The position numbers and the translations under genes are program-made. From NCBI GenBank assembly GCA_014879875.1, contig JACSRF010000387.1:1-33568 (forward strand): a stretch of 33,568 bases of DNA, given 5' to 3'. The notes beneath the pieces were generated by a model. That model saw nothing but the letters and a program-made list of their open reading frames with translations, ran no database searches and was not told where the DNA came from. This stretch comes from Anaerolinea sp. GTDB lineage: Bacteria; Chloroflexota; Anaerolineae; Promineifilales; Promineifilaceae. Positions 1 through 32,151 of the stretch are shown here, piece by piece (within the stretch, counting starts at the first letter, position 1; the number at the start of each line of letters is the position of its first letter).

Positions 1-66
1 GAACAAGGATGTTCGGACTACAGATTTTCATTCATTCGTGGTGCGCTGTAGGCGCGTGTTGTCTCC
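1..66. repeat. Dispersed intergenic repeat, copy 1
   Basis: This stretch matches 24898-24963 with about four mismatches (positions 17, 25, 47 and 49 of the repeat). It starts with GAACAAGGATGTTC and ends near TGTTGTCTCC. Copy 2 has an upstream partner arm that makes a hairpin; here the window edge cuts off that side. It contains no gene. Confidence 0.8.
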
Positions 67-300
67 TATAAAACGGTCCGTTCTTGCCCCCTCTACTGTA
101 TTTTTCAGGTGTAGGGCGGCTAACGGCTTGCGTTAACCGCAAGTGGGCGGAACGTGAGCAATGCTTGGGAGTAGGATTCTATTCGGGTTTGGAAAATGCC
201 CGAAAAATGTCGCAGAATCCCGCCAGTCAGGTACATGCTTTGTAGTGCAGCGTTTGAATTGCAGACCATGTTGTTTGCTCGAACACTTGTGATTTATAAA
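67..300. other. Gene-free stretch with small hairpins
   Basis: I see no convincing gene here. There is a short hairpin (CTTGCG / CGCAAG around 127-143) just after a GGCTAAC heptamer at 118-124, which could be a degenerate attC end. A second nested hairpin pairs GGATTCT near 173 with AGAATCC near 214, with CGGG/CCCG inside. The base composition is like the AT-richer cassette-like region that follows. Confidence 0.4.
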
Positions 301-894
301 TCATGCTTTTTTGCGAAGGATTTGAGTAAATTTGAATATGCCAAATAACCCAATCCCAGTAATCGCAATCATAAGAATGAAAGGGAATATGTCTTCCCAG
401 AAATTTCCTGTCCAACGTGTGCCAACAGTTATAGACGAGATTATCGCCATTAATAAAGCGCCACCACCGGTTATCGTTACACAGCTCAGAATGACAATAC
501 CAAAGATAATAAGCAATCTCACGCCATAACTACTTGTCTTTTGCTCAGAAGGTGTTGCAACTGATTGGAAACTGTCAATTTCCTGCTTTTCTGGATGCCT
601 TGTTTTTCTTGCTATGATAATTGAAAAAATCATTACCGCGAAAATATAAATATAGTCAAAGATGACGGCGTATCCAACACCCTTTGAACCTAACAAAGCA
701 GCAAGAAGAAATGAAACTAAGAAGGATGCTGGAAGCGGGGACAAAAGAAGCAAACCAAATAATCGTGCTTTATTTGATGGTAGCTCATACTCTCCTTTAC
801 CAAACAAGAATTTAAAGAGGCCTGAGGGGATTTTTCCAGAAATAATCGCCCAAAGTCCCGCAACGAAAAAGAGCAATTCAATGATTAATAGCAT
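301..894 (-). CDS. Hypothetical multi-spanning membrane protein
   Basis: This 197-residue protein has about five hydrophobic segments (roughly residues 1-20, 45-68, 75-95, 122-152 and 168-190), with polar loops containing KGEYELPSNKAR and a charged stretch near 97-120. It has no recognisable catalytic motif, so I do not assign a function. It is likely an inner-membrane protein. The gene is AT-rich compared with the rest of the window, points the same way as the next gene, and is separated from it by an attC-like hairpin at 958-1070, so it may be an integron-type gene cassette. The start at 894 gives an N-terminus that is immediately hydrophobic, as expected for a membrane protein. Confidence 0.7.
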   Translation of the reverse strand: MLLIIELLFFVAGLWAIISGKIPSGLFKFLFGKGEYELPSNKARLFGLLLLSPLPASFLVSFLLAALLGSKGVGYAVIFDYIYIFAVMIFSIIIARKTRHPEKQEIDSFQSVATPSEQKTSSYGVRLLIIFGIVILSCVTITGGGALLMAIISSITVGTRWTGNFWEDIFPFILMIAITGIGLFGIFKFTQILRKKA

Positions 895-957
895 GAAATT
901 TTCCTTACTTGACTACTTTTTGATAGGCTGGCCGTCTACGCAACTTTGCATAAGTCG

Positions 958-1070
958 TCCTAACGCCACCGTAAGCTGCACTGGCACGGCCGTTCCAACA
1001 CCTTTGCCAATCACCCAATAACAAGCCGTCCGAGGCATTGCGCCAGCGTTAGCTTGACGGAATGTTAGAC
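958..1070 (-). mobile_element. attC-like recombination site (candidate)
   Basis: On the minus strand this reads GTCTAAC (1070-1064, fits R'' RYYYAAC), then CCGTCAAGCT (1060-1051), and ends with AGCTTACGG (977-969) and GTTAGGA (964-958, close to R' GTTRRRY). The two inner boxes pair except for one extra C, like the extrahelical base of attC sites, and the R and L stems are separated by short unpaired spacers. A further CTGGC/GCCAG pair (981-985 with 1042-1046) extends the stem. The 113-bp length is within the range known for attC. No integrase is visible in the window. Confidence 0.55.
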
Positions 1071-1230
1071 GGGCTGCCGGCCTGACGCTGGCCTTTCTGC
1101 CAGAAAAGAAACTGTTAACACTATTATGTCAAAAGTGACCACCTTGTTTTTGCTGGCTTGTGGTCTTCACAAAGAGCATGAGGTCGAAAATCCACATTCA
1201 TTGAGAGCGTAACCTGGCTAATTCGTTCAA

Positions 1231-1824
1231 TTAGTTTGAATATTGAAGAGCAAATAATTCTTTTACCAACTGGCTTCGCTTTGGCCCGACCGGCTCAGAT
1301 TTTAGAAGCCTAAGTATTTCAATACTCCGCTCTCGCGCTTCCCGAAAACTATCGCTTTGGTATAATTCTCTAGCCCATTGTAGGGCCTGCTCATCCCATA
1401 TTTGTAATAATTCAGAAGGCCCATGCTCAATATAATCTTTTTCTTCCCAGTTTGAGCTATGCTGTATATCCAGGTCAGGCTGTTCAATGTTCAGTAGAAA
1501 TGGCAAAAGGTACAAATTGGATAACATTGCCTGACATAACTTTTTTGTGGCTTTTACCTTATCATTCGACTGGTATAACGATAAAGCCCAGCATAGCAAA
1601 TGAAAAGGCTCTCCTCCATCATCGGAAAATTCTTTCTCGAACCACGCAAAAGACTTAGTTGCTCCAGTAATATCACCTATCAGCAAATACATTGGTCCGA
1701 TCAAATAACGTTTTCCAGAATCGTCGCTAATGTAGCGAAACTTCTTGTATTCCTTTCGCAAATCGCTTTCGTATTGCTTAATCCGTTCTTGTATCTTGCG
1801 AGGATCATTGGGAAATTGAAACAT
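1231..1824 (-). CDS. Hypothetical helical protein (possibly TPR-like)
   Basis: This 197-residue soluble protein is predicted mostly helical. It has a charged N-terminus with a lysine-rich stretch (about residues 10-30), then repeated amphipathic helices (IGDITGATKSFAWFEKEF, LCWALSLYQSNDKVKATKK) that look like tetratricopeptide-type pairs, and a C-terminal helix rich in R/E. No enzyme motif is seen. It is AT-rich, lies on the same strand as the gene at 301-894, and is bracketed by attC-like sites (958-1070 and 1856-1983), which fits a cassette of about 0.9 kb. The ATG at 1824 gives a clean start. The function is unknown. Confidence 0.7.
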   Translation of the reverse strand: MFQFPNDPRKIQERIKQYESDLRKEYKKFRYISDDSGKRYLIGPMYLLIGDITGATKSFAWFEKEFSDDGGEPFHLLCWALSLYQSNDKVKATKKLCQAMLSNLYLLPFLLNIEQPDLDIQHSSNWEEKDYIEHGPSELLQIWDEQALQWARELYQSDSFREARERSIEILRLLKSEPVGPKRSQLVKELFALQYSN

Positions 1825-1855
1825 AGCACTCCATACAAACTAACACACTCGTACC

Positions 1856-1983
1856 GCCTAACGAAGTAAGGATTCATGCGGCGGCTCCGCAGACTCCGCG
1901 CCGCATAATGGCATTCTGCGAAAGTGGCATTCTGCGAAAGTGGCATTCTACGAATGCGGCATTCATTGAATGCCCGGTTGAAC
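1856..1983 (-). mobile_element. Second attC-like site (weaker candidate)
   Basis: On the minus strand the ends are GTTCAAC (1983-1977, fits R'') and GTTAGGC (1862-1856, a classical R' core). The interior can fold, including ATGCGGCG at 1876-1883 with CGCCGCAT at 1899-1906, but the L boxes pair less clearly than in the site at 958-1070. It lies about 900 bp from that site, which is the size of one cassette with the gene at 1231-1824. Confidence 0.4.
1909..1972. repeat. Four tandem 16-bp units
   Basis: The unit TGGCATTCTGCGAAAG occurs exactly at 1909-1924 and 1925-1940, then with changes at 1941-1956 and 1957-1972. It sits inside the attC-like site 1856-1983. Confidence 0.85.
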
Positions 1984-2108
1984 AAAGTCGCACCTGGCGG
2001 TAACTTTTCTCTTTGAAATTTAAGCCTGGGGATACCTGATAACCGTTACCGCTCACCCCCACGACCAGAGTCATTGTAACAGGTCCGACTGGAAAAGATC
2101 AATAACCT

Positions 2109-2330
2109 ATGCCCGATTTCCCGCCTCAATTTCGCGCCGCTGACGCCACCGCCGACCGCCAAACGACAACCAGGCAGCATCAAATAAACAGCCTGTCTTT
2201 GGTAACGGCCGTGCAAAAATACATCTACACCCGCACCGATTTCTACCGCGATTTTACCAATCAGCCAGAGGTGAAAAGTTTTCTGGTGAATGAGTTGTTT
2301 CGCTATGATTATGATGGGCTGGGAACGTGA
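2109..2330 (+). CDS. Short hypothetical protein or gene remnant
   Basis: This would encode 73 residues. The second half (from about residue 38) has a protein-like composition with aromatic and acidic residues (YIYTRTDFYRDF, FLVNELFRYDYDG), which suggests a genuine or formerly genuine coding sequence. The N-terminal half is low-complexity. I recognise no domain, and the length suggests a C-terminal remnant of a longer gene cut off where the AT-rich accessory DNA joins the core. It contains one ACGGCCGT motif (2205). It converges on the response regulator gene, 17 bp away. Confidence 0.35.
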   Translation: MPDFPPQFRAADATADRQTTTRQHQINSLSLVTAVQKYIYTRTDFYRDFTNQPEVKSFLVNELFRYDYDGLGT

Positions 2331-2347
2331 TGGGGTTGAGGCCTATG

Positions 2348-3001
2348 TTACTCCAGCAACCCTTTCGCCAACGCAAAGCGCACCAATGCCGCCCGGCTGC
2401 GCAGTTCCAGTTTTTCCATGCCCCGCGCCCGGTAGGTGTCTACCGTTTTGGCGCTGACAGAAAGCCGGTCGGCAATCTCTTTGCTGGTGTGCCCCAAGGC
2501 AACTAACTGCAACACTTCCTGCTCGCGCTCGCTCAAAGTATCCCAAAGTTCTTCTTCGGCCGCCGGCCTTTCATTGTTCGGCGTTACATCGTCTAACAGC
2601 GCCCGGGTCAGGGAGGGATGGACATACATATCGCCGCGCATGACGGCTTGAATGGCGGCGATCAGTTCCACATCGGCCGCTTTTTTCAGCACATAGCCAG
2701 ACGCCCCACTTTTGAATGCCCGGCGCAAATAGCCCTCGTCGTGGTGCATGGTGAGGATGAGGATGCGGGCGTCGGGTACGCGCTGGCGCAGCAGCGGCAG
2801 CGTTTCCAACCCGCCCAGCCGGGGCATGGTCAAATCGAGCAAGATGATGTCTGGCCGGGTTGTTTCGACCAGGGTTAGCAGTTCAACGCCGTCGGCGGCT
2901 TCGCCGATAACGGTCATGTCACTGCGGGCATCAAGGAGAGCGGCCAGGCCGGTACGCAGCACGGCATGGTCATCGGCTAATACAATGCGGATAGGCGTCA
3001 T
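2348..3001 (-). CDS. LuxR/NarL-family response regulator
   Basis: This 217-residue protein is a two-component transcription regulator. The receiver domain (about residues 1-120) has the acidic pair D10/D11, the phospho-acceptor D56 in LLDLTMP, and a conserved K near residue 106. The C-terminal part (about 150-212) is a LuxR-type helix-turn-helix, with LSEREQEVLQLVALGHTSKE followed by the recognition-helix region AKTVDTYRARGMEKL. It overlaps the upstream kinase gene by four bases (ATGA at 2998-3001), so the two are translationally coupled and form a cognate pair. The target is not shown by the sequence; the nearby respiratory operons are good candidates because TtrR, the regulator of tetrathionate reductase, is in the same family. 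Confidence 0.92.
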   Translation of the reverse strand: MTPIRIVLADDHAVLRTGLAALLDARSDMTVIGEAADGVELLTLVETTRPDIILLDLTMPRLGGLETLPLLRQRVPDARILILTMHHDEGYLRRAFKSGASGYVLKKAADVELIAAIQAVMRGDMYVHPSLTRALLDDVTPNNERPAAEEELWDTLSEREQEVLQLVALGHTSKEIADRLSVSAKTVDTYRARGMEKLELRSRAALVRFALAKGLLE

Positions 3002-4413
3002 AGGGGCACCTCGATAAAAATGCTGGTTCCTTGCCCTGGCGTTGATTCGATGGTGAGAGAGCCGTTGAGCAGTTCGGCCCGTTCTCTCATGCCGTAGAGT
3101 CCAAGACGGCCGTTTCTCCCCGCCACTTCCTCAACAAAGCCAACCCCATCATCTTCGATAATGGCCCGGATACGGCCGTGACCACGTTCCACCAACACGC
3201 TGACTGTTTGCGCCTGGGCGTGGCGGGCAATGTTGGTCAGGCTTTCTTGAACAATGCGGTAAACGGCCGTTTCCACCGCCGGCGGCAGCCGTTCTTCCAG
3301 CCCCATCACCACCAGGTCTACCTCAACGGGATAACGCGCCTGGTAATCTTGCACATAGCGCCGCAGCGCCGCCGCCAATCCCAAATCATCCAGCACACTG
3401 GGGCGCAGTTCCACCGCCAGGTTATGCACGCCCTCCAATGTCTGCGCGACCAACGCGCGCACCCCGTCCAACTGTTCCTGAATATCCGGCAGCGGACACT
3501 GCTGGTTGACCATTTGCAGGCGCACCATCAGCGAGGTGAGCGACTGCCCCGTCTCGTCGTGCAGTTCGCGGGCGATGCGGCGGCGTTCATCTTCCTGGGC
3601 AGTGATCACCTTTTCCAGCAGTTGGCTGCGCAGTTGGTCTCGTTCAACCCGCTCCTGTTCCGCCTGGGCCAGGTCGGCCGTCATGACGTTAAATGCTTCG
3701 GCCAGTTCACCAATTTCATCCCCGGCCCAGGGGGTGACATGCTGCTGAAAATCGCCCTGACCGACCGCTTCGGCGGCCTGTTTTAGCTCAATAATCGGCC
3801 GGGTGACGACCCAGGTAAGCAGCGTGGCGGCGGCGATGCCGACGGCCGAAACCATGACGGTGGTCAACAGCATTTGCCCGGTGAGGGCAGCAACGGTGGC
3901 CTGCATACTGGCTTCGGACAGGCCAACCCGCGCCACGCCGGCCTGCCCGTCGAAAATGGGAACGGCCGTGTCCCACACCGGCCCTTCATCGGTTTGGAGC
4001 AGCATGGTTTGGTGATGGTCGCTGGCCGTCACCGGGTTAACTGCCAGCAAATCGCGGGGGAAGCCGGCGCCGAAGGTGTGGACCAATACCGCGCCGTCTT
4101 GGGACGTGACGAAAGCGTAACGTACATCGGGGTTGTTCAATTGGGTTTCAATGAGTAATTGGTGCAGGGAAAAGAGGTCGTTGATCAGGATCATATCGGT
4201 GGCGCGGGCGGCCACGTCGCGGGCGACAGAGATGCTTTGCTCTTGCAGCCGCTGCTCTAGCGCCTGGGTCAGCACGCCGCGTACCTGCACGGTGATGCCC
4301 ACGCCCAGCAGCAGCACCAGCGCCAGCACAATGCCCATAATTTTGGTGCGCACGCTAAATGCCCCGGCAAAGCGCCAAAGACGGACGAAGAATGGTGAAT
4401 GGTAAATGGACAT
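2998..4413 (-). CDS. HAMP-domain histidine kinase (NarX/DegS-like, HisKA_3)
   Basis: This 471-residue membrane sensor kinase has TM1 at about residues 24-43, an extracytoplasmic sensing domain at about 44-180, TM2 at about 182-203, and a HAMP linker at about 203-255. The HisKA_3 dimerisation domain carries the phospho-acceptor H285 in ARELHDETGQ. It ends with a HATPase domain with an N-box (ESLTNIARHA), DDGVGF and GLYGMRERA. It follows the PhnD-like lipoprotein gene by about 20 bp and overlaps the response regulator by 4 bp. Its own extracytoplasmic domain is small, so it may need the lipoprotein to recognise a ligand. The start codon lies inside an in-register 7-bp repeat array (4390-4452), and a good ribosome binding site is not obvious, so an internal start near M26 cannot be excluded. 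Confidence 0.92.
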   Translation of the reverse strand: MSIYHSPFFVRLWRFAGAFSVRTKIMGIVLALVLLLGVGITVQVRGVLTQALEQRLQEQSISVARDVAARATDMILINDLFSLHQLLIETQLNNPDVRYAFVTSQDGAVLVHTFGAGFPRDLLAVNPVTASDHHQTMLLQTDEGPVWDTAVPIFDGQAGVARVGLSEASMQATVAALTGQMLLTTVMVSAVGIAAATLLTWVVTRPIIELKQAAEAVGQGDFQQHVTPWAGDEIGELAEAFNVMTADLAQAEQERVERDQLRSQLLEKVITAQEDERRRIARELHDETGQSLTSLMVRLQMVNQQCPLPDIQEQLDGVRALVAQTLEGVHNLAVELRPSVLDDLGLAAALRRYVQDYQARYPVEVDLVVMGLEERLPPAVETAVYRIVQESLTNIARHAQAQTVSVLVERGHGRIRAIIEDDGVGFVEEVAGRNGRLGLYGMRERAELLNGSLTIESTPGQGTSIFIEVPL

Positions 4414-4452
4414 CGGAATAATACGGATTACGGTTAACGGTTAACGGCCGTT
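4390..4452. repeat. In-register heptamer array between phnD-like and kinase genes
   Basis: Nine consecutive 7-bp blocks can be read: GAATGGT, GAATGGT, AAATGGA, CATCGGA, ATAATAC, GGATTAC, GGTTAAC, GGTTAAC, GGCCGTT. The kinase start codon (4411-4413) and the stop codon of the lipoprotein gene (4434-4436) both lie inside the array, and the last block is part of an ACGGCCGT motif. Confidence 0.75.
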
Positions 4453-5333
4453 TCCAATTCCCGCACCGACTCATAAGCCGCGTCTTCGATTAACACAAAA
4501 CCATCCATTCCCGCCGTTTGTAAAGCAGCCTGCCCCGCTGCTGTCTCATTCATTTGCAGCAAGGCCGCTTGCAAATCGGCCACCAACTGCGGCCGCGCCT
4601 CCGGGCTGACGACGACAGGCGGGATGCCAAAAGCGGGCGATTGGTGAATGACGCGCGTTTTCTGGGCCAGATCTGGCTCTCGCTCCAAGGCAAACGCATA
4701 AACCAGGCTGTCTACGGCCGCGCCATCAGCCACATGGTTGGCGACGGCGCGAATGGCGTCGTCATGGCTGTAGGTGTAGAACGTGCGGCTGAAAAAGCTC
4801 GCCACCGTTTCGCCCATCTGCTGCACCAGCCAGATGGGGTAGTTGCGCCCGCTGGTGGAAATGGGGTCGGTGAAGGCAAAAACGCCGCCGCGTAAATCGG
4901 CCATGCCTTGCGCCGGGCTGTCGGCAGGCACAATCAGCAGGGAATGGTAGACCGTGCCCCCCATCACCTGCGGCGCGGCCAGGAGCTGCATCTCAAACTC
5001 GCGTTCGCCCACAATATAGGCGCTGGTGCAGACAAAGGCGACGTCTACTTCACCGCTTTGCACCAGGTCGTTCACCTCGCCGTAGGTGCGGCGCTGCACC
5101 AGTTCCACCGGCCGATCCAGCGCTGCGCCCAGGTAATCCAGCAGCGGGCCATAGCTGTCAACGGTGCCTTTGGGGGAGATAATGGCGGCAACGGCGACAC
5201 GCAGGGGTTTAACAGCCGTTGCCGACACCCCTGGCAATGGCTGCAAATCAGACAAATTCACAGAGGCCGTCGCCGGGGGCGCAGCGCAGCCCACAAGGAG
5301 GAAAAATGCGCTCAGGAGGAGAAGGTAACGCAT
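4434..5333 (-). CDS. PhnD-like substrate-binding lipoprotein, orphan
   Basis: This 299-residue protein has a lipoprotein signal (LVGC, lipidated Cys at residue 16) followed by a phosphate/phosphite/phosphonate-type periplasmic binding fold. Family features include the early LRVAVAA strand, the segment SGEVDVAFVCTSAYIVG, and FTDPISTSGRNYP, which is the ligand-contact loop region. It should sit outside the cytoplasmic membrane. No permease or ATPase gene is nearby, so an uptake role is doubtful. It is instead placed directly before a histidine kinase and its regulator. In TtrS, the tetrathionate sensor, a PhnD-like domain is fused to the kinase, so I infer a ligand-sensing role here. The ligand itself cannot be read from the sequence. 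Its last codons and stop fall in a 7-bp repeat array. Confidence 0.85.
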   Translation of the reverse strand: MRYLLLLSAFFLLVGCAAPPATASVNLSDLQPLPGVSATAVKPLRVAVAAIISPKGTVDSYGPLLDYLGAALDRPVELVQRRTYGEVNDLVQSGEVDVAFVCTSAYIVGEREFEMQLLAAPQVMGGTVYHSLLIVPADSPAQGMADLRGGVFAFTDPISTSGRNYPIWLVQQMGETVASFFSRTFYTYSHDDAIRAVANHVADGAAVDSLVYAFALEREPDLAQKTRVIHQSPAFGIPPVVVSPEARPQLVADLQAALLQMNETAAGQAALQTAGMDGFVLIEDAAYESVRELETAVNR

Positions 5334-5349
5334 GAAATGACTATTAATG

Positions 5350-5400
5350 AATAATCAATTGGGAACGCTGTTAACAATTCCCAATCCATTATTGATTATT
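5350..5400. repeat. Inverted repeat upstream of the lipoprotein gene
   Basis: AATAATCAAT (5350-5359) pairs with ATTGATTATT (5391-5400), and TGGGAA (5360-5365) pairs with TTCCCA (5378-5383). It fills most of the 65-bp gap between the CMD-family gene and the lipoprotein gene. It could terminate the first transcript or set the ratio of expression; there is no T-tract to prove a terminator. Confidence 0.6.
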
Positions 5401-5710
5401 AACTATTCAACAGGTCATTCACCCAGGTATAGGCCGCCACCGTATTGGGCATACCCAGCGTGGTGACGGCTAGGGTGACGATGTGTTTGATTTCGTCGGG
5501 GCTGATGCCGCTTTCTAAAGCACGGCGAGTGTGGGCGTGGACGGCGCCCTCGTGACCCAGGCCAATCGCCAGGGCCAGTTTGACCAGTTGGCGGGTTTTG
5601 TCGTCTAGCGGGCCATTGTCATGGCTGGCGGCGGCTAACTGTTCGTAGGCGGCGGCAACGGCCGGAAATTCGGTCATAAATTGGTGATGAGCTTTCGGTT
5701 TGTCAGACAT
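5399..5710 (-). CDS. Carboxymuconolactone decarboxylase-family protein
   Basis: This 103-residue protein has the whole helical CMD/AhpD-like core: KLALAIGLGHEGAVHAHTRR followed by AxxxGxSPDEIKHIVTLAVTTLGMPN. The CxxC redox pair found in AhpD-type members is replaced by EGAV before HAH, so peroxidase or disulfide chemistry of the AhpD kind is unlikely. This cysteine-free variant is common in bacteria and has no assigned reaction. It lies 65 bp upstream of the sensor lipoprotein gene on the same strand, so it may be cotranscribed with the signalling genes; whether it has any functional link to them is not shown. Confidence 0.85.
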   Translation of the reverse strand: MSDKPKAHHQFMTEFPAVAAAYEQLAAASHDNGPLDDKTRQLVKLALAIGLGHEGAVHAHTRRALESGISPDEIKHIVTLAVTTLGMPNTVAAYTWVNDLLNS

Positions 5711-5790
5711 GGTTTCATTCCTTGTTGTTTATTTTTTGAGACGATAATTTGTCTAAAGATTCTAACGGGTCGTGAAAAAGATCGCCTTGA

Positions 5791-6012
5791 TTAGTTTGAG
5801 ACATACTGCACTCTTAATCTGGCCCATAACAGAAAAAGTTCCATTTCCCCATCGTCGTCGTTGCGTGTAATACCCAAGCGGGATGCACGATACCTGATGG
5901 CGTTCAACGGCCGCCAATTTTCAGTCACAGACGTTGGTTTGCCTTCTTTCTGTTCAACTTCTGCGACGGCCGTCCACCGCTGAACATATGCCTTTGCCTC
6001 TGCTGCGTTCAT
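5791..6012 (-). CDS. Small conserved-looking hypothetical protein
   Basis: This encodes 73 residues starting MNAAEAKAYVQRW. I chose this ATG rather than the one 60 bases upstream because the extra residues (rich in H, C and T) do not look like protein. The product is soluble and helical, with charged segments AEVEQKEGKP and an RYRASRLGI motif, and has no cysteine pair or membrane segment. It lies between the CMD-family gene and the FmdE-like gene on the same strand, with 52 bp to the latter's stop codon. Function unknown. Confidence 0.6.
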   Translation of the reverse strand: MNAAEAKAYVQRWTAVAEVEQKEGKPTSVTENWRPLNAIRYRASRLGITRNDDDGEMELFLLWARLRVQYVSN

Positions 6013-24876: not shown

Positions 24877-24964
24877 GAACATCCCTGTTCGATGTCCGAA
24901 CAAGGATGTTCGGGCTACAGAGTTTCATTCATTCGTGGTGCGCCGCAGGCGCGTGTTGTCTCCT
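24877..24964. repeat. Dispersed repeat copy 2 with partner arm
   Basis: GAACATCCCTGTTC (24877-24890) pairs with GAACAAGGATGTTC (24898-24911) with one mismatch. From 24898 the sequence repeats the start of the window (1-66) with four changes. It separates the two ATP-grasp genes. Confidence 0.8.
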
Positions 24965-25938: not shown

Positions 25939-26008
25939 GGATTGACGGTTGACGATTTTGGATTTACGATTCACTCGTCACTCGTCACTCGTCACTCGTC
26001 ACTCACCC
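25939..26008. repeat. In-register heptamer array (10 units)
   Basis: Consecutive blocks are GGATTGA, CGGTTGA, CGATTTT, GGATTTA, CGATTCA, four CTCGTCA, and CTCACCC. It fills the gap between the esterase stop codon (26003) and the ATP-grasp ribosome binding site, and overlaps the end of the esterase gene. Confidence 0.85.
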
Positions 26009-26722
26009 ATGTCCGCCAATATACAACGGCAGCATCTGCTGCCACCACGGCCAATCATGCGCCCAGCCATCCCAGAGGCGCAGCGCATTGCCGATGCCCT
26101 TTTGCCAGAGCAGCGCCGACAACTGTTCGCTGCTGCCACGCAGGGGATCATCTTTGCCTACGGCCAAAATGATGTCCAACTTTTGCAGCGCCGCAATCCG
26201 CTGCGAATCGTGCTCGTGAGAGATGAAGGCCACCGGGTTGTTGCTGTGAACATTTTGGTCTGTGTGGCCGTTTGTCCACCGACCGATGTCATAAATACCG
26301 CTCATGCCAATGGCGCGCCCGACCACGTGGGGATGACGCAGGGCAAAATTCACGGCATGATAAGCGCCAAAACTGGCGCCGACGGTGATCAGAAACGGGT
26401 TAGGGTTTTTTTGCCACGACAGCGGCAAGACTTCATTAAGGAGGTAATATTCATATTGAATCTGTCGCCAGGCGCGATCTCCTGGATGCTTCCAATGCGC
26501 ATACCAGCTCTCTGCATCCACACTGTCCACGCAAATCAGTTGCACCCAGCCATTATCCAGGTGTCCCCGAATGGCGTTTGTCATTTGCCGGTCTTCCCAT
26601 TCGTAGAACTTGCCTTTAGAGGTGGGAAACACCAGGACGCGCGCTCCTGCATGTCCAAAAATCAACAATTCCATATCGCGGCCTAGCGCGGGGCTGTGCC
26701 AACGGTGGTATTCACGATTCAT
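26003..26722 (-). CDS. Esterase of the COG4947 / enterochelin-esterase-like type
   Basis: This 239-residue alpha/beta hydrolase has nucleophile S117 in GASFGA, an acidic residue in GKDDP (D191 or D192), and H222 in WAHDW, in the order expected for a Ser-Asp-His triad. The N-terminus (HSPALGRDMELLIFGHAG) resembles the putative esterase family that includes Fes and S-formylglutathione hydrolases. No signal peptide is seen, so it is cytoplasmic. It begins the minus-strand set with two ATP-grasp genes. It may hydrolyse an ester or thioester linked to the product of those ligases; this is inference. GGAAGG lies upstream of the start. Confidence 0.8.
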   Translation of the reverse strand: MNREYHRWHSPALGRDMELLIFGHAGARVLVFPTSKGKFYEWEDRQMTNAIRGHLDNGWVQLICVDSVDAESWYAHWKHPGDRAWRQIQYEYYLLNEVLPLSWQKNPNPFLITVGASFGAYHAVNFALRHPHVVGRAIGMSGIYDIGRWTNGHTDQNVHSNNPVAFISHEHDSQRIAALQKLDIILAVGKDDPLRGSSEQLSALLWQKGIGNALRLWDGWAHDWPWWQQMLPLYIGGHG

Positions 26723-26793
26723 GCCTGCTTTGCCTTCCTTCGTTCGGTTTTTTTGCCTGGAACTATCTGCCAGTGGGCAGTCATCCTGATTGC

Positions 26794-26849
26794 CGTTTAC
26801 GGATTACCGCTCACGGATTACCGCTCACGGATTACCGCTCACGGATATT
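26794..26849. repeat. In-register heptamer array (8 units)
   Basis: Blocks are CGTTTAC, then GGATTAC and CGCTCAC alternating three times, then GGATATT. It lies in the 291-bp gap between the divergent esterase and hisS genes, which also holds a hisS promoter and a leader hairpin. The remaining bases show no gene. Confidence 0.85.
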
Positions 26850-26917
26850 GGCTGGTTCGTTGGCGTATTGTATCATCAAACAGGTAAAGCAAAGAAATTG
26901 TCCTGGCAGCATAGAAA

Positions 26918-26947
26918 TTACAGCAAACGGCCGTATCCCGCTATAAT
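26918..26947 (+). promoter_or_regulatory. Probable hisS promoter
   Basis: A perfect -10 TATAAT lies at 26942-26947, with a weak -35 candidate TTACAG at 26918-26923, giving an 18-bp spacer that contains one ACGGCCGT motif (26927). Transcription would start near 26954. Confidence 0.5.
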
Positions 26948-26963
26948 ACACGCCATGACTAAA

Positions 26964-26996
26964 AAACCTGGCAGGTCGCGGAGACCTGCCAGGTTT
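26964..26996 (+). promoter_or_regulatory. Perfect 14-bp hairpin in the hisS leader
   Basis: AAACCTGGCAGGTC (26964-26977) and GACCTGCCAGGTTT (26983-26996) are exact reverse complements with a GCGGA loop. It lies between the promoter and the ribosome binding site (GGAGGT at 27004-27009), so it could affect translation or stability, or it is a REP-like repeat that landed there. Confidence 0.7.
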
Positions 26997-27013
26997 GGAA
27001 TGTGGAGGTAATC

Positions 27014-28294
27014 TTGACCGCAATACAACGCGCCAAAGGGATGCAAGACGTTTTGCCCGATGATCGCCATTATTGGGATTGGGTGCTGGCAACGGCCGTC
27101 GCCATCGCCCAGCAGTACGGCTTCCAACGCATAGACGTGCCGATTATCGAATACACCCCCCTCTTTGCACGGGGCATGGGCGAAGCGTCCGATGTGTTCG
27201 TGCAAAAAGAGATGTACACCATCGAAGAGCCAGATGGCGAGAGCGTCACCCTGCGCCCAGAGTTCACTGCCGGGTTAGTCCGCGCCTACATTGAAAATGG
27301 GTTGAGCAGTTGGCCGCAGCCGGTGAAGCTGTTTACCATCGGCCCCATCTTCCGCCGCGAACGGCCGCAAGCCGGCCGCTACCGCCAACACAGCCAGTTC
27401 GACGTCGAAATTTTGGGCGAAACCGACCCCGCCGCCGACCTGGAAGTGATGATGTTGGCGATGAACCTGTACCGCCAGTTAGGCTACACAGGGCTGACTT
27501 TTCAGCTCAACAGCACTGGCTGCCCCATGTGCAAGCCAGCTTACATCGCCGAACTGACCCGCTATTTAGCCGACCACCAGCACAAGCTGGCCCCCATTGA
27601 TCAGGAGCGGCTGGCGAAAAACCCGCTGCGCGTGCTGGACAGTAAAGAGCCGGGCATGGATGCGCTGCTGGCGGCTGCGCCACACATCATCAACCATCTC
27701 TGCGATGATTGCGCGGCGCATTTCGCCGACCTGCGCGGCATGTTGGATGCGTTAGGGCAATCTTATACCATCAATTTCCGCCTGGTGCGCGGCATTGATT
27801 ACTATACCAAGACGGTGTTTGAGGTGTGGGCGGAAGGGATTGGGGCGCAGGCGGCCGTTTGCGGTGGCGGCCGTTACGATGGGTTGGCGGAAGCAATTGG
27901 CGGCCCCTCTACGCCTGGCGTCGGCTTTGGCAGCGGCGTCGAGCGCATTGTGCTGGCGCTCAAAGAACAGGGTATCGCCGCCCCGGCCGCGCCGCAGCCA
28001 CAGGTCATGGTCGCTCATTTTGGCGGCGTGACGAAAACGGCCGCTGTCAAACTCACCTATCTGCTGCGCGACGCCGGCATTGGCGCGCGGCTGGCCTTCG
28101 CCCGCGAACGGCGCAGCATGAAAAGCCAGATGCGCGAAGCCAATAAATTTGGCGTCCGCTACGTACTCATCTTGGGCGAGGCGGAAGTGGAGCAGGGGGA
28201 GGTGGCGATACGGCCGTTGGATGGCGGCGCACAGGCACAAATCCCCCAAACCGACCTGGTAAACTGGCTGCAAGCGGTAATCGGTAATCGGTGA
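27014..28294 (+). CDS. hisS: Histidine--tRNA ligase
   Basis: This class II aminoacyl-tRNA synthetase charges tRNA-His. I placed the start at TTG 27014 (TAIQRAKGMQDVLPDD) because GGAGGT lies five bases upstream and family members begin right at this point; the in-frame GTG at 27002 overlaps that site. The 426-residue product has motif 2 FRRERPQAGRYRQHSQFDVE, the HisA segment LVRGIDYYTKTVFE, the HisB segment CGGGRYDGL, and motif 3 GVGFGSGVERIVLAL. The C-terminal anticodon-binding domain runs from about residue 325. Its last codons and stop are made from 7-bp repeats (CGGTAAT). Confidence 0.95.
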   Translation: MTAIQRAKGMQDVLPDDRHYWDWVLATAVAIAQQYGFQRIDVPIIEYTPLFARGMGEASDVFVQKEMYTIEEPDGESVTLRPEFTAGLVRAYIENGLSSWPQPVKLFTIGPIFRRERPQAGRYRQHSQFDVEILGETDPAADLEVMMLAMNLYRQLGYTGLTFQLNSTGCPMCKPAYIAELTRYLADHQHKLAPIDQERLAKNPLRVLDSKEPGMDALLAAAPHIINHLCDDCAAHFADLRGMLDALGQSYTINFRLVRGIDYYTKTVFEVWAEGIGAQAAVCGGGRYDGLAEAIGGPSTPGVGFGSGVERIVLALKEQGIAAPAAPQPQVMVAHFGGVTKTAAVKLTYLLRDAGIGARLAFARERRSMKSQMREANKFGVRYVLILGEAEVEQGEVAIRPLDGGAQAQIPQTDLVNWLQAVIGNR

Positions 28295-28330
28295 GCAGCG
28301 AAACTATCGCACTATCACACTATCACACTA
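28275..28330. repeat. Short tandem repeats between hisS and nadK
   Basis: Three 7-bp units (CGGTAAT, CGGTAAT, CGGTGAG) at 28275-28295 contain the hisS stop codon. They are followed by ACTATCGC, ACTATCAC, ACTATCAC (8-bp units, 28303-28326), which run up to the nadK start region, where I see no ribosome binding site. Confidence 0.75.
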
Positions 28331-28337
28331 ACGACTC

Positions 28338-29180
28338 ATGACTCTCATCGGCATTCTCCACCAGCCACGCATCCCGGCGACTGAACAAATGGCCGCGGAT
28401 ATTGCCGCATGGCTGGCAGCGCAGGGGCATACAGCCTGGACTGGCTCCACCTGGGATGAGGATGACGTGAACGGCCGTATGCCCCGTTTCGCCTTTTTGA
28501 TTGTGTTGGGCGGGGATGGCTCCACCTTACGCGCCGCGCGTCTCACCGTGCCACACAACGTCCCCATTTTTGGCATCAACATGGGGCGCGTTGGCTTTCT
28601 CAGTGAGGCACAGGTGGGCAACTGGCAGGAAAAGTTAAGCAAAGTGCTGCAAGGCGACTTCTGGTTAGAACGGCGCTTGATGCTACAGGCAGAGTTGGAG
28701 CGCGACGGCCGTGTCATCGCCAGCCACACCGCCCTCAACGACGTTGTGGTCGGGCGCGGCCGTCAGGCGCGCGTGCTGCGGCTGCTGCTCAGCGTAGATG
28801 GCGATTATGTCACCCAATACACGGCCGACGCTCTGATCATCGCCACCCCCACCGGCTCTACCGCTTATTCCATGGCGGCCGGCGGGCCGCTGCTGCCGCC
28901 CCAATTACAAAACTTCATCGTCGTCCCCGTCGCCGCCCATCTCAGCCTGGATCGCGCCCTGGTGCTGCACGAGGACACCATCATCACCATTGACGTCAAC
29001 ATGGACCACGAAGCGGTATTAATGGCCGATGGACAAGATAGCCTCTCCCTGCAAAATGGTGATAAAGTAGTTGTGCAAAAACATGAGCACACCTGCTCTT
29101 TTATTCGCGTCGAAAGCGCGGGCTACTTCTACCGCCGCCTGATGCGGCGCTTGGGGCACGCCCGGCAGCAGAATGAGTGA
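28338..29180 (+). CDS. nadK: NAD kinase
   Basis: This makes NADP from NAD and a phosphate donor in the cytoplasm. The 280-residue product has the conserved GGDGS (residues 58-62, catalytic D60), NMGRVGFL for NAD binding, and TPTGSTAYSMAAGGP, the family signature. Length is typical. It follows hisS by 43 bp and probably shares its transcript. No ribosome binding site is seen before the ATG at 28338; the leader is a short tandem repeat, so initiation may be by coupling or without a leader site. Confidence 0.93.
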   Translation: MTLIGILHQPRIPATEQMAADIAAWLAAQGHTAWTGSTWDEDDVNGRMPRFAFLIVLGGDGSTLRAARLTVPHNVPIFGINMGRVGFLSEAQVGNWQEKLSKVLQGDFWLERRLMLQAELERDGRVIASHTALNDVVVGRGRQARVLRLLLSVDGDYVTQYTADALIIATPTGSTAYSMAAGGPLLPPQLQNFIVVPVAAHLSLDRALVLHEDTIITIDVNMDHEAVLMADGQDSLSLQNGDKVVVQKHEHTCSFIRVESAGYFYRRLMRRLGHARQQNE

Positions 29181-29183
29181 AGA

Positions 29184-29281
29184 CCGTGAACCGTGAACCG
29201 TGAACCGTGAACCGTAAACCGTAAACCGTGAACCGTGAACGGATAACGGATTACGGCTTACGGATTACGGCTTACGGATTA
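29184..29281. repeat. In-register heptamer array (14 units)
   Basis: Fourteen consecutive 7-bp blocks: CCGTGAA x4, CCGTAAA x2, CCGTGAA x2, CGGATAA, CGGATTA, CGGCTTA, CGGATTA, CGGCTTA, CGGATTA. It starts four bases after the nadK stop codon and ends just before the ribosome binding site of the next gene. An ATG inside it gives a spurious N-terminal extension to that gene. Confidence 0.95.
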
Positions 29282-29296
29282 CGCAAAAGGATGATC

Positions 29297-30259
29297 ATGA
29301 CCATAAGTGGACCCCGGCTGCGCACGTTGTTGCAACAGGCAGAAAGCGTTGCCGCCAATGGTAAACGGGCAGCTGCCCTGACTCTCTATCAACAAATTAT
29401 CACCGAAGCGCCCGACGCTGTTGAAGCGTGGTTGGGCGTTGCTGAATTGGCGCCAGACCTGGCGGAACGGGAAGCGGCGTACCAGCAGGCGCTCAGCCTG
29501 GACCCGGAAAATGACCAGGCAAAAATTGGTTTGGCACAATTACGGGGTGAAGAGGTGGCAACGGCCGTTGCCCCAGGAACGGCCGTGCTCCAACCGGAAA
29601 CAGACGACCCCTTCCAACAAACACGCGCCTGGCTTGAGGAGGCGACCCGGCCCGCGCAAACACGCCAGCCAACCCCGCCAGGCCAGCCGGAACCAGAGCC
29701 AGAACCAGAGCCGACGTCACAGGTGGAGGAAACGGCCGATACCCATGACGACTATGACCTCGTCTGTTACCGGCACGCCAACCGCGCCACCGCCCTGCGC
29801 TGCTATAGCTGCCACAAACCCATTTGCAGCCAATGCGCCGTTAAAACGCCCGTTGGCTACCGCTGCCCTGACTGCATCCGCGAAGCTGAGGCCGTTTTCT
29901 TCAATGCCAGGCTGGTTGATTACGTCATCGCCCCCCTCGTTTCACTGCCCCTCAGCCTGCTTGCCGGGCTGCTCATGTTGCAGCTTTCCGGCAGTTTCTT
30001 CTTCATTTTGCTCACCTTTTTCATTGGCGGGTTAATTGGGGGGTTTATTGGGCGTATGGCAAAAGCGGCCGTTGGGCGGCGGCGCGGCCGTTATTTGCCA
30101 CACGTCGTCACCGCCACCGTCATCATTGGCGGCATGGTCGCCGCCCTGCCGTCCATTTTGGCGCTGCTCTTCGGCAGCTTCGGCGGCATTATTGGGCTGC
30201 TCATACCCGGCATTTACACTTTCGTCGCCTCCAGCGCCGCCTTTTATCAAATGAAATAA
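29297..30259 (+). CDS. TPR/B-box zinc-finger membrane protein
   Basis: The start is ATG 29297, five bases after AAAGGA; upstream in-frame ATGs lie in the repeat array or on that site. The 320-residue protein has helical TPR-like repeats (about residues 5-85), a proline/glutamate-rich linker with PEPEPEPEP (131-139), then a B-box-like zinc finger (C157, H160, C169, C172, C177, C180, C190, C193). At the C-terminus there are about three to four transmembrane helices (from about 210). Such a mix suggests a membrane protein with cytoplasmic protein-binding domains, but I know no function. It contains two ACGGCCGT motifs close together (29561 and 29579). Confidence 0.8.
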   Translation: MTISGPRLRTLLQQAESVAANGKRAAALTLYQQIITEAPDAVEAWLGVAELAPDLAEREAAYQQALSLDPENDQAKIGLAQLRGEEVATAVAPGTAVLQPETDDPFQQTRAWLEEATRPAQTRQPTPPGQPEPEPEPEPTSQVEETADTHDDYDLVCYRHANRATALRCYSCHKPICSQCAVKTPVGYRCPDCIREAEAVFFNARLVDYVIAPLVSLPLSLLAGLLMLQLSGSFFFILLTFFIGGLIGGFIGRMAKAAVGRRRGRYLPHVVTATVIIGGMVAALPSILALLFGSFGGIIGLLIPGIYTFVASSAAFYQMK

Positions 30260-30280
30260 TTACGGAATGCGCAAGACACT

Positions 30281-32041
30281 ATGTTATCGGAACTACACAT
30301 CCGCAATTTTGCCATTATTGATGACCTGCGTCTCCGGTTTGATGCGGGCTTTAACGTTCTCACGGGGGAAACCGGGGCCGGGAAGTCCATTATTTTAGAT
30401 GCGGTGATGCTCGTTTTGGGCGGGCGCGGCGACACGGCGATGATCCGCGCTGGCTGTGAGCAGGCATTTGTGGAGGCGACTTTTCGCCTGGATGAACGGC
30501 TGCGCGCCCAAATTTGGCCGCTGCTGCAAGCGGAGGGGCTGGACGATGAGGATGAGTTTGGGGATGAGCTGATGTTAGCCAGGGAACTGCGCGCCAACGG
30601 CCGTAACATCACCCGCGTCAACGGCCGTTCCATTAACCTCACCCTCCTGCGCGACATCGCCGAACCCCTCATTGACATTCACGGCCAGGGCGACCACCTT
30701 TCCCTGCTCAAGCCCCGCTCCCATTTGCCCCTGCTCGACGCTTACGCCGGGCTGGAAAAAGCGCGCAAAGCATTCGCCCACGAAGTCGGTAAACTGCATC
30801 AGCTACAGCGCGAACTACAAGGACTGCGCCAGGATGAACGTCTGCTGGCGCAGCGGATGGACATGCTCCAATTCCAAATTCAGGAAATTGACGCCGCCAA
30901 ATTGAAAGTAGGTGAGGAAGAAGATCTGCGCATTGAGCGGGAACGGCTGGCAAATGCGGAACACCTGACCTTAGCCGCCACCGAAGCCGTGACCGCCATG
31001 ACCGGCATAGATGACGAGGGGCAAAATGTCGTTGACCTGCTCGGCCAGGCAGAACGGGCATTAACCCAACTGGCGCGCTTCGACGAGTCGCAGAATGCCC
31101 GCCTGGAAACGATACAAGGTCTGGCTTTCCAGATTAGCGAATTGGCCGGGGAACTGCAAACGTATCTGGAAGAACTGGAGTTTAACCCGGAACGGCTGAA
31201 CCAGGTGGAAGAGCGGCTGGAACTGCTCAACACGTTGAAGCGCAAATATGGGGCAGACATCGCGGCGGTGTTGGCTTTGCGTGACAAAGCGGCCGTTGAA
31301 CTCGACCAGATTACGCACAGCGAAGAGCGGATCGAACAGCTTGTCAAAGAACAGACCGCCATGTTGCGTCACCTGGGCAAGTTGGCGCAAGTTTTGTCAA
31401 ATAAACGGCAGGAAGCGGCCGTGCGCCTGGCGCGTTCTGTCGAAGAGCATATGGCTGAATTGAGCATGGCCGGGGCGCGTTTCTCCGTCTCTTTCACGCA
31501 GGAAGCAGACGCCAACGGCCTTTATTTGGGTGAAGAGCGGCTCGCCTTCGATCAGACCGGGTATGATGTGGTGGAATTCCTCATTTCCACCAATCCGGGC
31601 GAACCGTTGAAGCCAATGGCCAAAGTTGCCAGCGGTGGCGAAACGGCGCGGTTGATGTTGGGCCTAAAAACGGCGCTGGCCGAGGTGGACGCCACGCCCA
31701 CGCTTATTTTTGACGAAATTGACCAGGGCATTGGCGGTCGTGTGGGCAGTGTTGTCGGGCAAAAGTTGTGGGGGTTAACGGCCGTCGCCCACCATCAGGT
31801 CATCGTCGTCACCCATTTGCCACAGTTGGCCGGGTTTAGCGATGCCCATTTCCACGTCAGCAAGCAGACGCATAACGAACGGACGACGACGGCCGTTACC
31901 AACCTGGACAGAGATGGCCGCATCACCGAACTGGCCGCCATGCTCGGCACGCAGGCGCAGCACGCCCGCGACGGCGCCGCCGCCCTTTTGGATATGGCGT
32001 ACACGGCGAAGCAGAGGGGAAACGTGAGGCGTGAAACGTGA
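30281..32041 (+). CDS. recN: DNA repair protein RecN
   Basis: This SMC-like ATPase acts in double-strand break repair. The 586-residue product has Walker A GETGAGKS (29-36), a long coiled-coil middle (about 150-370), and at the C-terminus the ABC signature ASGGETARLMLGLK with Walker B LIFDEIDQGIGG and a later VVTHLPQLA switch segment. The size is usual for RecN. It begins 21 bp after the TPR/B-box gene, likely in one transcript. The last codons and stop are built from CGTGAGG/CGTGAAA heptamers, giving the tail NVRRET, which is not conserved in the family as far as I know. Confidence 0.95.
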   Translation: MLSELHIRNFAIIDDLRLRFDAGFNVLTGETGAGKSIILDAVMLVLGGRGDTAMIRAGCEQAFVEATFRLDERLRAQIWPLLQAEGLDDEDEFGDELMLARELRANGRNITRVNGRSINLTLLRDIAEPLIDIHGQGDHLSLLKPRSHLPLLDAYAGLEKARKAFAHEVGKLHQLQRELQGLRQDERLLAQRMDMLQFQIQEIDAAKLKVGEEEDLRIERERLANAEHLTLAATEAVTAMTGIDDEGQNVVDLLGQAERALTQLARFDESQNARLETIQGLAFQISELAGELQTYLEELEFNPERLNQVEERLELLNTLKRKYGADIAAVLALRDKAAVELDQITHSEERIEQLVKEQTAMLRHLGKLAQVLSNKRQEAAVRLARSVEEHMAELSMAGARFSVSFTQEADANGLYLGEERLAFDQTGYDVVEFLISTNPGEPLKPMAKVASGGETARLMLGLKTALAEVDATPTLIFDEIDQGIGGRVGSVVGQKLWGLTAVAHHQVIVVTHLPQLAGFSDAHFHVSKQTHNERTTTAVTNLDRDGRITELAAMLGTQAQHARDGAAALLDMAYTAKQRGNVRRET

Positions 32042-32050
32042 GGCGTTAGC
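32023..32050. repeat. Heptamer array at the recN 3' end
   Basis: Four units CGTGAGG, CGTGAAA, CGTGAGG, CGTTAGC. The recN stop codon (32039-32041) lies inside. Confidence 0.8.
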
Positions 32051-32052
32051 CA

Positions 32053-32086
32053 AGAAGTTCAACTTCTCCAAAGAAGTTGAACTTCT
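32053..32086. terminator. Bidirectional stem-loop between recN and the S41 protease gene
   Basis: AGAAGTTCAACTTCT (32053-32067) and AGAAGTTGAACTTCT (32072-32086) are exact reverse complements with a 4-base loop (CCAA). Each arm is nearly self-complementary. The genes on both sides converge on it, so it can stop both transcripts. Confidence 0.75.
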
Positions 32087-32102
32087 AAACGACTACGGGG
32101 CG

Positions 32103-32151
32103 CCGACCACCGATTACCGATTACCGACCACCGATTACCGATTACCGACAC
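32103..32151. repeat. In-register heptamer array (7 units)
   Basis: CCGACCA, CCGATTA, CCGATTA, CCGACCA, CCGATTA, CCGATTA, CCGACAC. It lies just before the stop codon of the protease gene (minus strand). Confidence 0.9.

Follow-up and report, generated by a model that had tools for sequence, protein, structure and literature searches.

The integrase-less cassette array at the left edge of this contig (a CALIN comprising cassettes 1 and 2) probably has as its starting point the right end, now decayed, of an IS91-like transposable element; it belongs to a set of about a dozen arrays in the genome that start in this way. Comparison of sequences, within the genome and with relatives, shows that the attC family is genuine, that no intact intI is present, what the element is and that it recurs at the border between chromosome and cassettes.

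The window, the whole 33,568-nucleotide stretch of Anaerolinea sp. DNA that was analyzed, corresponds to contig C27 of an assembly of 6.9 Mb in 680 contigs, with a completeness of 94% and an estimated contamination of 5.2%. It begins at the first base of the contig and the array is therefore truncated there, at a dispersed repeat that has a second copy in the window at 24898-24964 (Table 1). Cassette 1 comprises the gene at 1824-1231 and the attC at 1070-958; cassette 2 comprises the gene at 894-301, its end being lost at the contig edge. Both genes and the attC are on the minus strand. The preliminary description had pictured AT-richer genes on one strand, and GC content is indeed 42-44% at the cassette end versus 52-62% across the remaining window. 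No Rfam family is matched at the gathering threshold anywhere in the window. Between genes at 25971-32149 there are several tandem-repeat arrays, with units of 7 bp and 14 bp.

Table 1. Features of the cassette end of the window and of the adjoining chromosomal flank
Feature	Position	Strand	Basis or remarks
Dispersed repeat	1..67	+	More than 20 genome copies, 90-98% identity, often at contig ends; array cut here
8-bp hairpin GGTTAACG/CGTTAGCC	118..138	.	attC model, each strand: 8.4 bits, E 0.83
Cassette gene 2	301..894	-	Predicted membrane protein of 197 aa without a Pfam family
attC of cassette 1	958..1070	-	R'' 1070-1064, L'' 1060-1051, extrahelical C at 1056, L' 977-969, R' 964-958
Cassette gene 1	1231..1824	-	197-aa protein, no Pfam family
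GTTAGGC core (R') box, start of first cassette, right flank of IS91-like end	1856..1862	-	Sequence
Right-end remnant of IS91-like (Y2) element	1856..2199	-	Homology to ends following Y2 transposase genes
Terminal hairpin ATGCGGCG/CGCCGCAT of IS91-like end	1876..1906	-	Alignment, fold
16-bp tandem repeat between GTTCAAC and hairpin	1909..1964	-	Seen in other own copies too
Internal GTTCAAC (R''-like), partner of core box	1977..1983	-	Copy comparison
Outward promoter-like TTGATC-18-TACAAT, toward cassettes	2073..2102	-	Spacing kept in most own copies and seven relatives
Truncated hsdR-like gene tail, last 43 codons	2199..2329	+	Cut where remnant starts
LuxR-type response regulator, chromosomal flank	2348..3001	-	Orthologs in relatives
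Sensor histidine kinase, chromosomal flank	2998..4413	-	Annotation

The site at 958-1070 has the architecture of an attC. Along the minus strand it runs GTCTAAC-ATT-CCGT(C)AAGCT ... AGCTTACGG-TGGC-GTTAGGA, in which GTCTAAC is R'', CCGT-C-AAGCT is L'' with one extra C, AGCTTACGG is L' and GTTAGGA is R'. All of the features first noted by inspection are present, namely the R'' box, the paired L boxes with their single extrahelical base, and the near-consensus R'. The layout equals that of the aadA attC (GTCTAACAATTCGTTCAAGCC...GGCTTAA...GTTAGAT), including the extra base. A covariance-model search for attC, which the preliminary description had proposed, returned 958-1070 as the top match in window 1-6000, with exact ends, at 14.7 bits and E 0.032, using a model built exclusively from class 1 integron attC sites, 15 in number. 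This is modest evidence for the site taken singly, and its fold is no better than that of shuffled sequences (z -0.79).

The identification of 958-1070 as an attC is settled by family-level sequence evidence. The site is accepted because about 20 homologs are present in its own genome and because many homologs in relatives score 20-32 bits (E 6e-5 to 0.02) against the class 1 model, the top ones being L127 at 32.5 bits (E 6e-5), L130 at 30.4, L133 at 30.0 and L135 at 28.4. The copies in the genome lie 0.8-1.4 kb apart on one strand on contigs C127, C56, C381, C458 and others, and form arrays of 2-5 or more sites on these four and on C424. Further attC sites in own-genome arrays score 27.2 (C424), 24.4 (C381), 30.2 (C458) and 40.6 bits (C643). 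A search of 59 genomes located the same element in 11, namely the own genome and ten of its relatives, all of one family. Records with the family come nearly all from Anaerolineae, Caldilineaceae or other Chloroflexota MAGs, which, taken together with the shared family, puts the host in this phylum; the few carrying other phylum labels may be binning errors or transfers. On contig C106 of relative G022, a family attC lies 1.6 kb from a full-length intI in divergent arrangement, and this homolog folds well beyond shuffled sequences (z -5.4). The low score of 958-1070 alone would suit a reading of chance hairpins and repeats with no integron; the family-wide attC scores, the spacing, the strand agreement and the linkage to intI refute that reading and leave it scarcely credible. 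The third, degenerate site once suspected at 118-124 gains no support as an attC; what lies there is the low-scoring hairpin at 118-138 in Table 1, at most a possible degenerate site.

No integron integrase is encoded in the window, and none was found above the cut-off across the whole assembly. One match to the IntI model, on C377, was rejected as IntI, as it is a 296-aa XerC/D-like protein. A deleted intI remnant is present at C415:103-304 (L028); it retains residues 23-65, with 58-74% identity to relatives, then lacks about 190 codons and resumes at about residues 257-277. Among the 59 genomes searched, 24 have an IntI above the curated cut-off, one of them from the same genus. Loss of the integrase from this genome is probable, and the arrays are therefore likely frozen. 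With 680 contigs and 94% completeness, an intact intI could be absent from the assembly, and with 5.2% contamination, another organism could be the source of some arrays.

An integron array without integrase, as originally suspected, is borne out by the family-level attC evidence, the cassette genes on one strand and the finding of the C415 remnant but no intact intI in the genome. The search past the window for more sites and an intI found many cassettes on other contigs and, again, no intact intI. These arrays resemble the CALINs of IntegronFinder (PMC9024848) in that their attC sites share a strand with the cassette genes and no intI is close by. At least two attC sites stand close together in the family arrays; the window itself has one standard attC, with R''/R' and L''/L' pairing, an extrahelical base and a model match whose significance comes from its homologs, and the left side of its array ends at the contig start. 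As for the intI and attI that would stand beside the array in a complete integron, the C415 remnant is all that was found. The arrays differ from other CALINs in beginning, at about a dozen places, at an IS91-derived promoter and attachment end. Chloroflexota (Chloroflexi) are not mentioned in the IntegronFinder 2.0 paper (PMC9024848).

The second site proposed as attC-like, 1856-1983, proved to be of a different kind. The GTTCAAC and GTTAGGC ends described for it are there, but it is not an ordinary attC: it has no L''/L' match, contains an internal 16-bp repeat and gives no match with the attC model. Homology indicates that it is the promoter-bearing right end of a decayed element with a Y2 transposase of the IS91 type. 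The promoter assignment comes from conservation between copies; a promoter scan of the window sequence alone is no better than chance.

On its chromosomal side, the remnant cuts into an hsdR-like gene. With 95-98% identity, the surviving 43-codon tail matches a large protein encoded in both G034 and G064, as well as a fragment in G062; the large protein looks, by sequence, like a type I restriction HsdR. The remaining part of the gene is absent from the assembly, in which only the 43-codon tail was found. At the response regulator/histidine kinase locus of G027, G025 and G002, a metallophosphoesterase-like gene (named by eye) follows the response regulator, and no empty site was seen. The hsdR-like tail (2199-2329) occupies the place that this gene has in other genera of the family.

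About 14 copies of the 1854-2110 repeat family are present in the genome. They are mostly gene-less and about 200-350 nt long, and the aligned copies have in common TTGA(C/T)C-18-TACAAT, then roughly 100 nt of leader, GTTCAAC, the hairpin and CTTCGTT. Where both sides are visible, most copies have chromosomal genes on one side and cassettes on the other. The genes before the end are ordinary (response regulator/histidine kinase, alpha-2-macroglobulin, FtsX, URO-D, UDPGP and M32 peptidase), and those after it are cassette-like (HicB, FGE-sulfatase, a NucS-like nuclease, HINT, NB-ARC/HEPN and DUF2785), followed in several cases by an attC. The clearest example is C643, in which chromosomal genes, the end, a single glycosyltransferase cassette, the 40.6-bit attC and chromosomal genes follow one another. 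Both flanks can be seen at this locus (L142), with SBP_bac_5 and DAHP synthase genes on either side of the cassette. Exceptions are a copy at C424:12336 within an array and a partial copy on C78 within another. The right flank of every readable copy is GTT followed by two purines, for which the expectation is about 1/4 per copy; the flank sequences vary between copies, but the copies are related, so the count carries no formal probability. One cassette gene, at L018 7544-10309, is unusually long for a cassette; its 921-aa product has Swt1-like HEPN, NB-ARC, TPR and cold-shock domains and is possibly a defence protein.

Two explanations of these ends dispense with a transposon. One holds that 1856-1983 is a true attI with its Pc platform, copied round the genome after loss of intI. 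This would account for the position at the border of chromosome and cassettes, the conserved cassette-facing promoter and the terminal core box, as well as for an antisense IntI-like fragment of 15 aa located about 60 nt upstream of the promoter in two copies. Yet attI sites of the same family beside intact intI genes have no hairpin and read ...AATAATAGTTRGRY, no homology links 1856-2199 to them, and in relatives this hairpin end is found after Y2 transposase genes. On these grounds, 1856-2110 was rejected as a Pc-attI platform minus its intI, and the idea is largely refuted and very improbable. The antisense fragment (AAHLLEAGxDIRTVQ) lies at L014 10548-10592 and L018 7245-7201. The native attI regions at L056, L059, L064 and other family intI loci, a describable set of Chloroflexota attI sites, have in common a Pc-like promoter and the core ...AATAATAGTTRGRY.

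The other explanation takes the end as a gene-less promoter cassette of the Vibrio superintegron type, causally unrelated to IS91. The short and mostly gene-less copies, their promoter-like sequence and cassette-type end fit such a cassette, and cassettes of this kind have promoter activity in Vibrio (PMC11014356). The borders argue otherwise: to the left of the own-genome copies lie chromosomal genes rather than attC, so that cassette borders are not present on both sides, and the window copy starts in the hsdR-like tail. Moreover, longer copies in relatives include the transposase, and the copies on C207 and in G012 seem to extend left into element sequence. A plain promoter cassette was therefore set aside as unlikely.

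Intact elements in relatives reveal what the remnants derive from. In G008, an IS91-type Y2 transposase with a zinc-binding domain and a tyrosine recombinase directly precede the end, and this transposase served as the query for finding further copies. The same hairpin end lies directly downstream of a Y2 transposase gene or fragment in six relatives (G008, G009, G012, G016, G032 and G060); in the own genome, no transposase match was found at E 1e-20. The borders of the element are cassette-like, with N|TTGAACTAAGC on the left and GTTCAAC-hairpin-N|TT on the right, and the left end TTGAACTAAGC can pair with the internal GTTCAA as its complement. The G008 copy is joined on its left to an attI-like sequence that ends in AATAACTAG|TT, and AATAACTAG| is the crossover sequence of the attI beside the G008 intI. 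G015 has a complete integron in which the first gene after the attI is a more distant Y2 gene, with an attC-like sequence (by eye) behind it.

Comparison of the readable copies separates two kinds. Among readable copies with GTTCAAC and a full upstream region, a promoter-like TTG(A)-18-TA(C)AAT is present, nearly always with 18-nt spacing, and the right flank of GTTCAAC copies is GTTRRRY or near it. Paralogs in G031 and G005 have GTTCAAA, GTTCAAT, GTTCAAG or GTCCAAA instead, with flanks TTTATAC, TTTATCG, CTTAGAT and GTTTTCG, and show neither a GTTRRRY box nor such a promoter. The sequences thus show the GTTRRRY flank, internal GTTCAAC and promoter-like sequence to be linked traits. In the transposase tree, copies tied to integrons alternate with the others, and therefore the association has changed more than once. 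Since the same end layout is found at non-integron paralogs, the ends may belong to the transposon itself, and their likeness to attC may be partly convergent. In L161, L162, L171 and L174, compared with integron-linked copies, the last base of the internal GTTCAAN agrees with the first base of the target in most copies; the agreement fails in G005 and in one G031 copy. It resembles the guide-target pairing of IS200/IS605 elements.

A competing explanation is that the Y2 transposase itself places the end at GTTRRRY boxes of arrays, the internal AAC pairing with GTT, so that IntI is uninvolved and the promoter is a by-product. It draws on the shared end layout at non-integron sites in G031 and G005, on base agreement in two of four paralogs (AAA/TTT and AAG/CTT) as well as in integron-linked copies (AAC/GTT), on the mixing of both kinds in the transposase tree and on the published association of attC with ISCR28 (PMC12772301). 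However, it predicts integron sequence to the left of the end, where own-genome copies have chromosomal genes, and the G008 copy has an attI-like left flank, joined at precisely the G|TT position expected for a first cassette. Placement by the transposase is possible but doubtful. Also tentative, and less likely than not, is the proposal that the IS91-like element of this Chloroflexota family has itself become an integron cassette, with ends serving at once as attC-type ends. Copies that acquired the matching internal GTTCAAC and the promoter would then be mobile, integrase-less sites for landing and expression of cassettes, from which IntI supplied in trans would have seeded many expressed arrays over one chromosome.

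The history favored here, in which arrays start at decayed right ends, would run as follows. IntI acting in trans, from a former resident gene or an outside source, would have joined cassettes successively at the G|TT box by the transposon end. The outward promoter at 2102-2073 may drive the minus-strand cassettes, substituting for Pc. Loss of intI would then have fixed the arrays.

Several known systems share parts of this arrangement. As in sedentary chromosomal integrons and superintegrons with VCR-like attC sites, there is one highly conserved attC family and there are many cassettes without assigned function; here, in contrast, several separate arrays exist and no intI platform was found. 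IS91/ISCR elements, such as ISCR28 in sul4 modules (PMC12772301), likewise have a Y2 transposase, a zinc-binding domain, a right-end hairpin and an association with attC, whereas the present termini fit cassette borders at GTTRRRY boxes, a tyrosine recombinase is present and the own-genome copies are right-end remnants. The gene-less promoter cassettes of Vibrionaceae (Blanco 2024, PMC11014356) also put promoter-like sequence before silent cassettes; an IS91-like origin and a position at the array start beside chromosomal genes distinguish the ends described here. The attG sites (Loot 2024, Nat Microbiol), in the citing account in PMC12444791, similarly allow cassettes to enter outside attI and attC, but are scattered, loose genomic sites as opposed to a specific conserved end. 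CALINs, conserved chromosomal attC families, the closeness of ISCR to attC (PMC12772301) and promoter cassettes (PMC11014356) are thus already known. Judged against the open-access literature, in which a single paper brings IS91, attC and oriIS together, a recurrent, promoter-bearing, IS91-derived start of integrase-less arrays appears to be new.

Integrons are thought to require one intI/attI/Pc platform per array. In the genome studied, by contrast, remains of transposon ends, each with a promoter-like sequence and a joining site of cassette type, appear to form the start of about a dozen arrays. The split between copies with GTTCAAC, GTTRRRY and the promoter and copies without them renders the idea directly testable. 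IS91-like ends of this kind would put on a concrete footing the proximity of ISCR and attC, which has been reported without explanation (PMC12772301), and, if functional, would provide a route to expressed cassette arrays at many loci without a local integrase.
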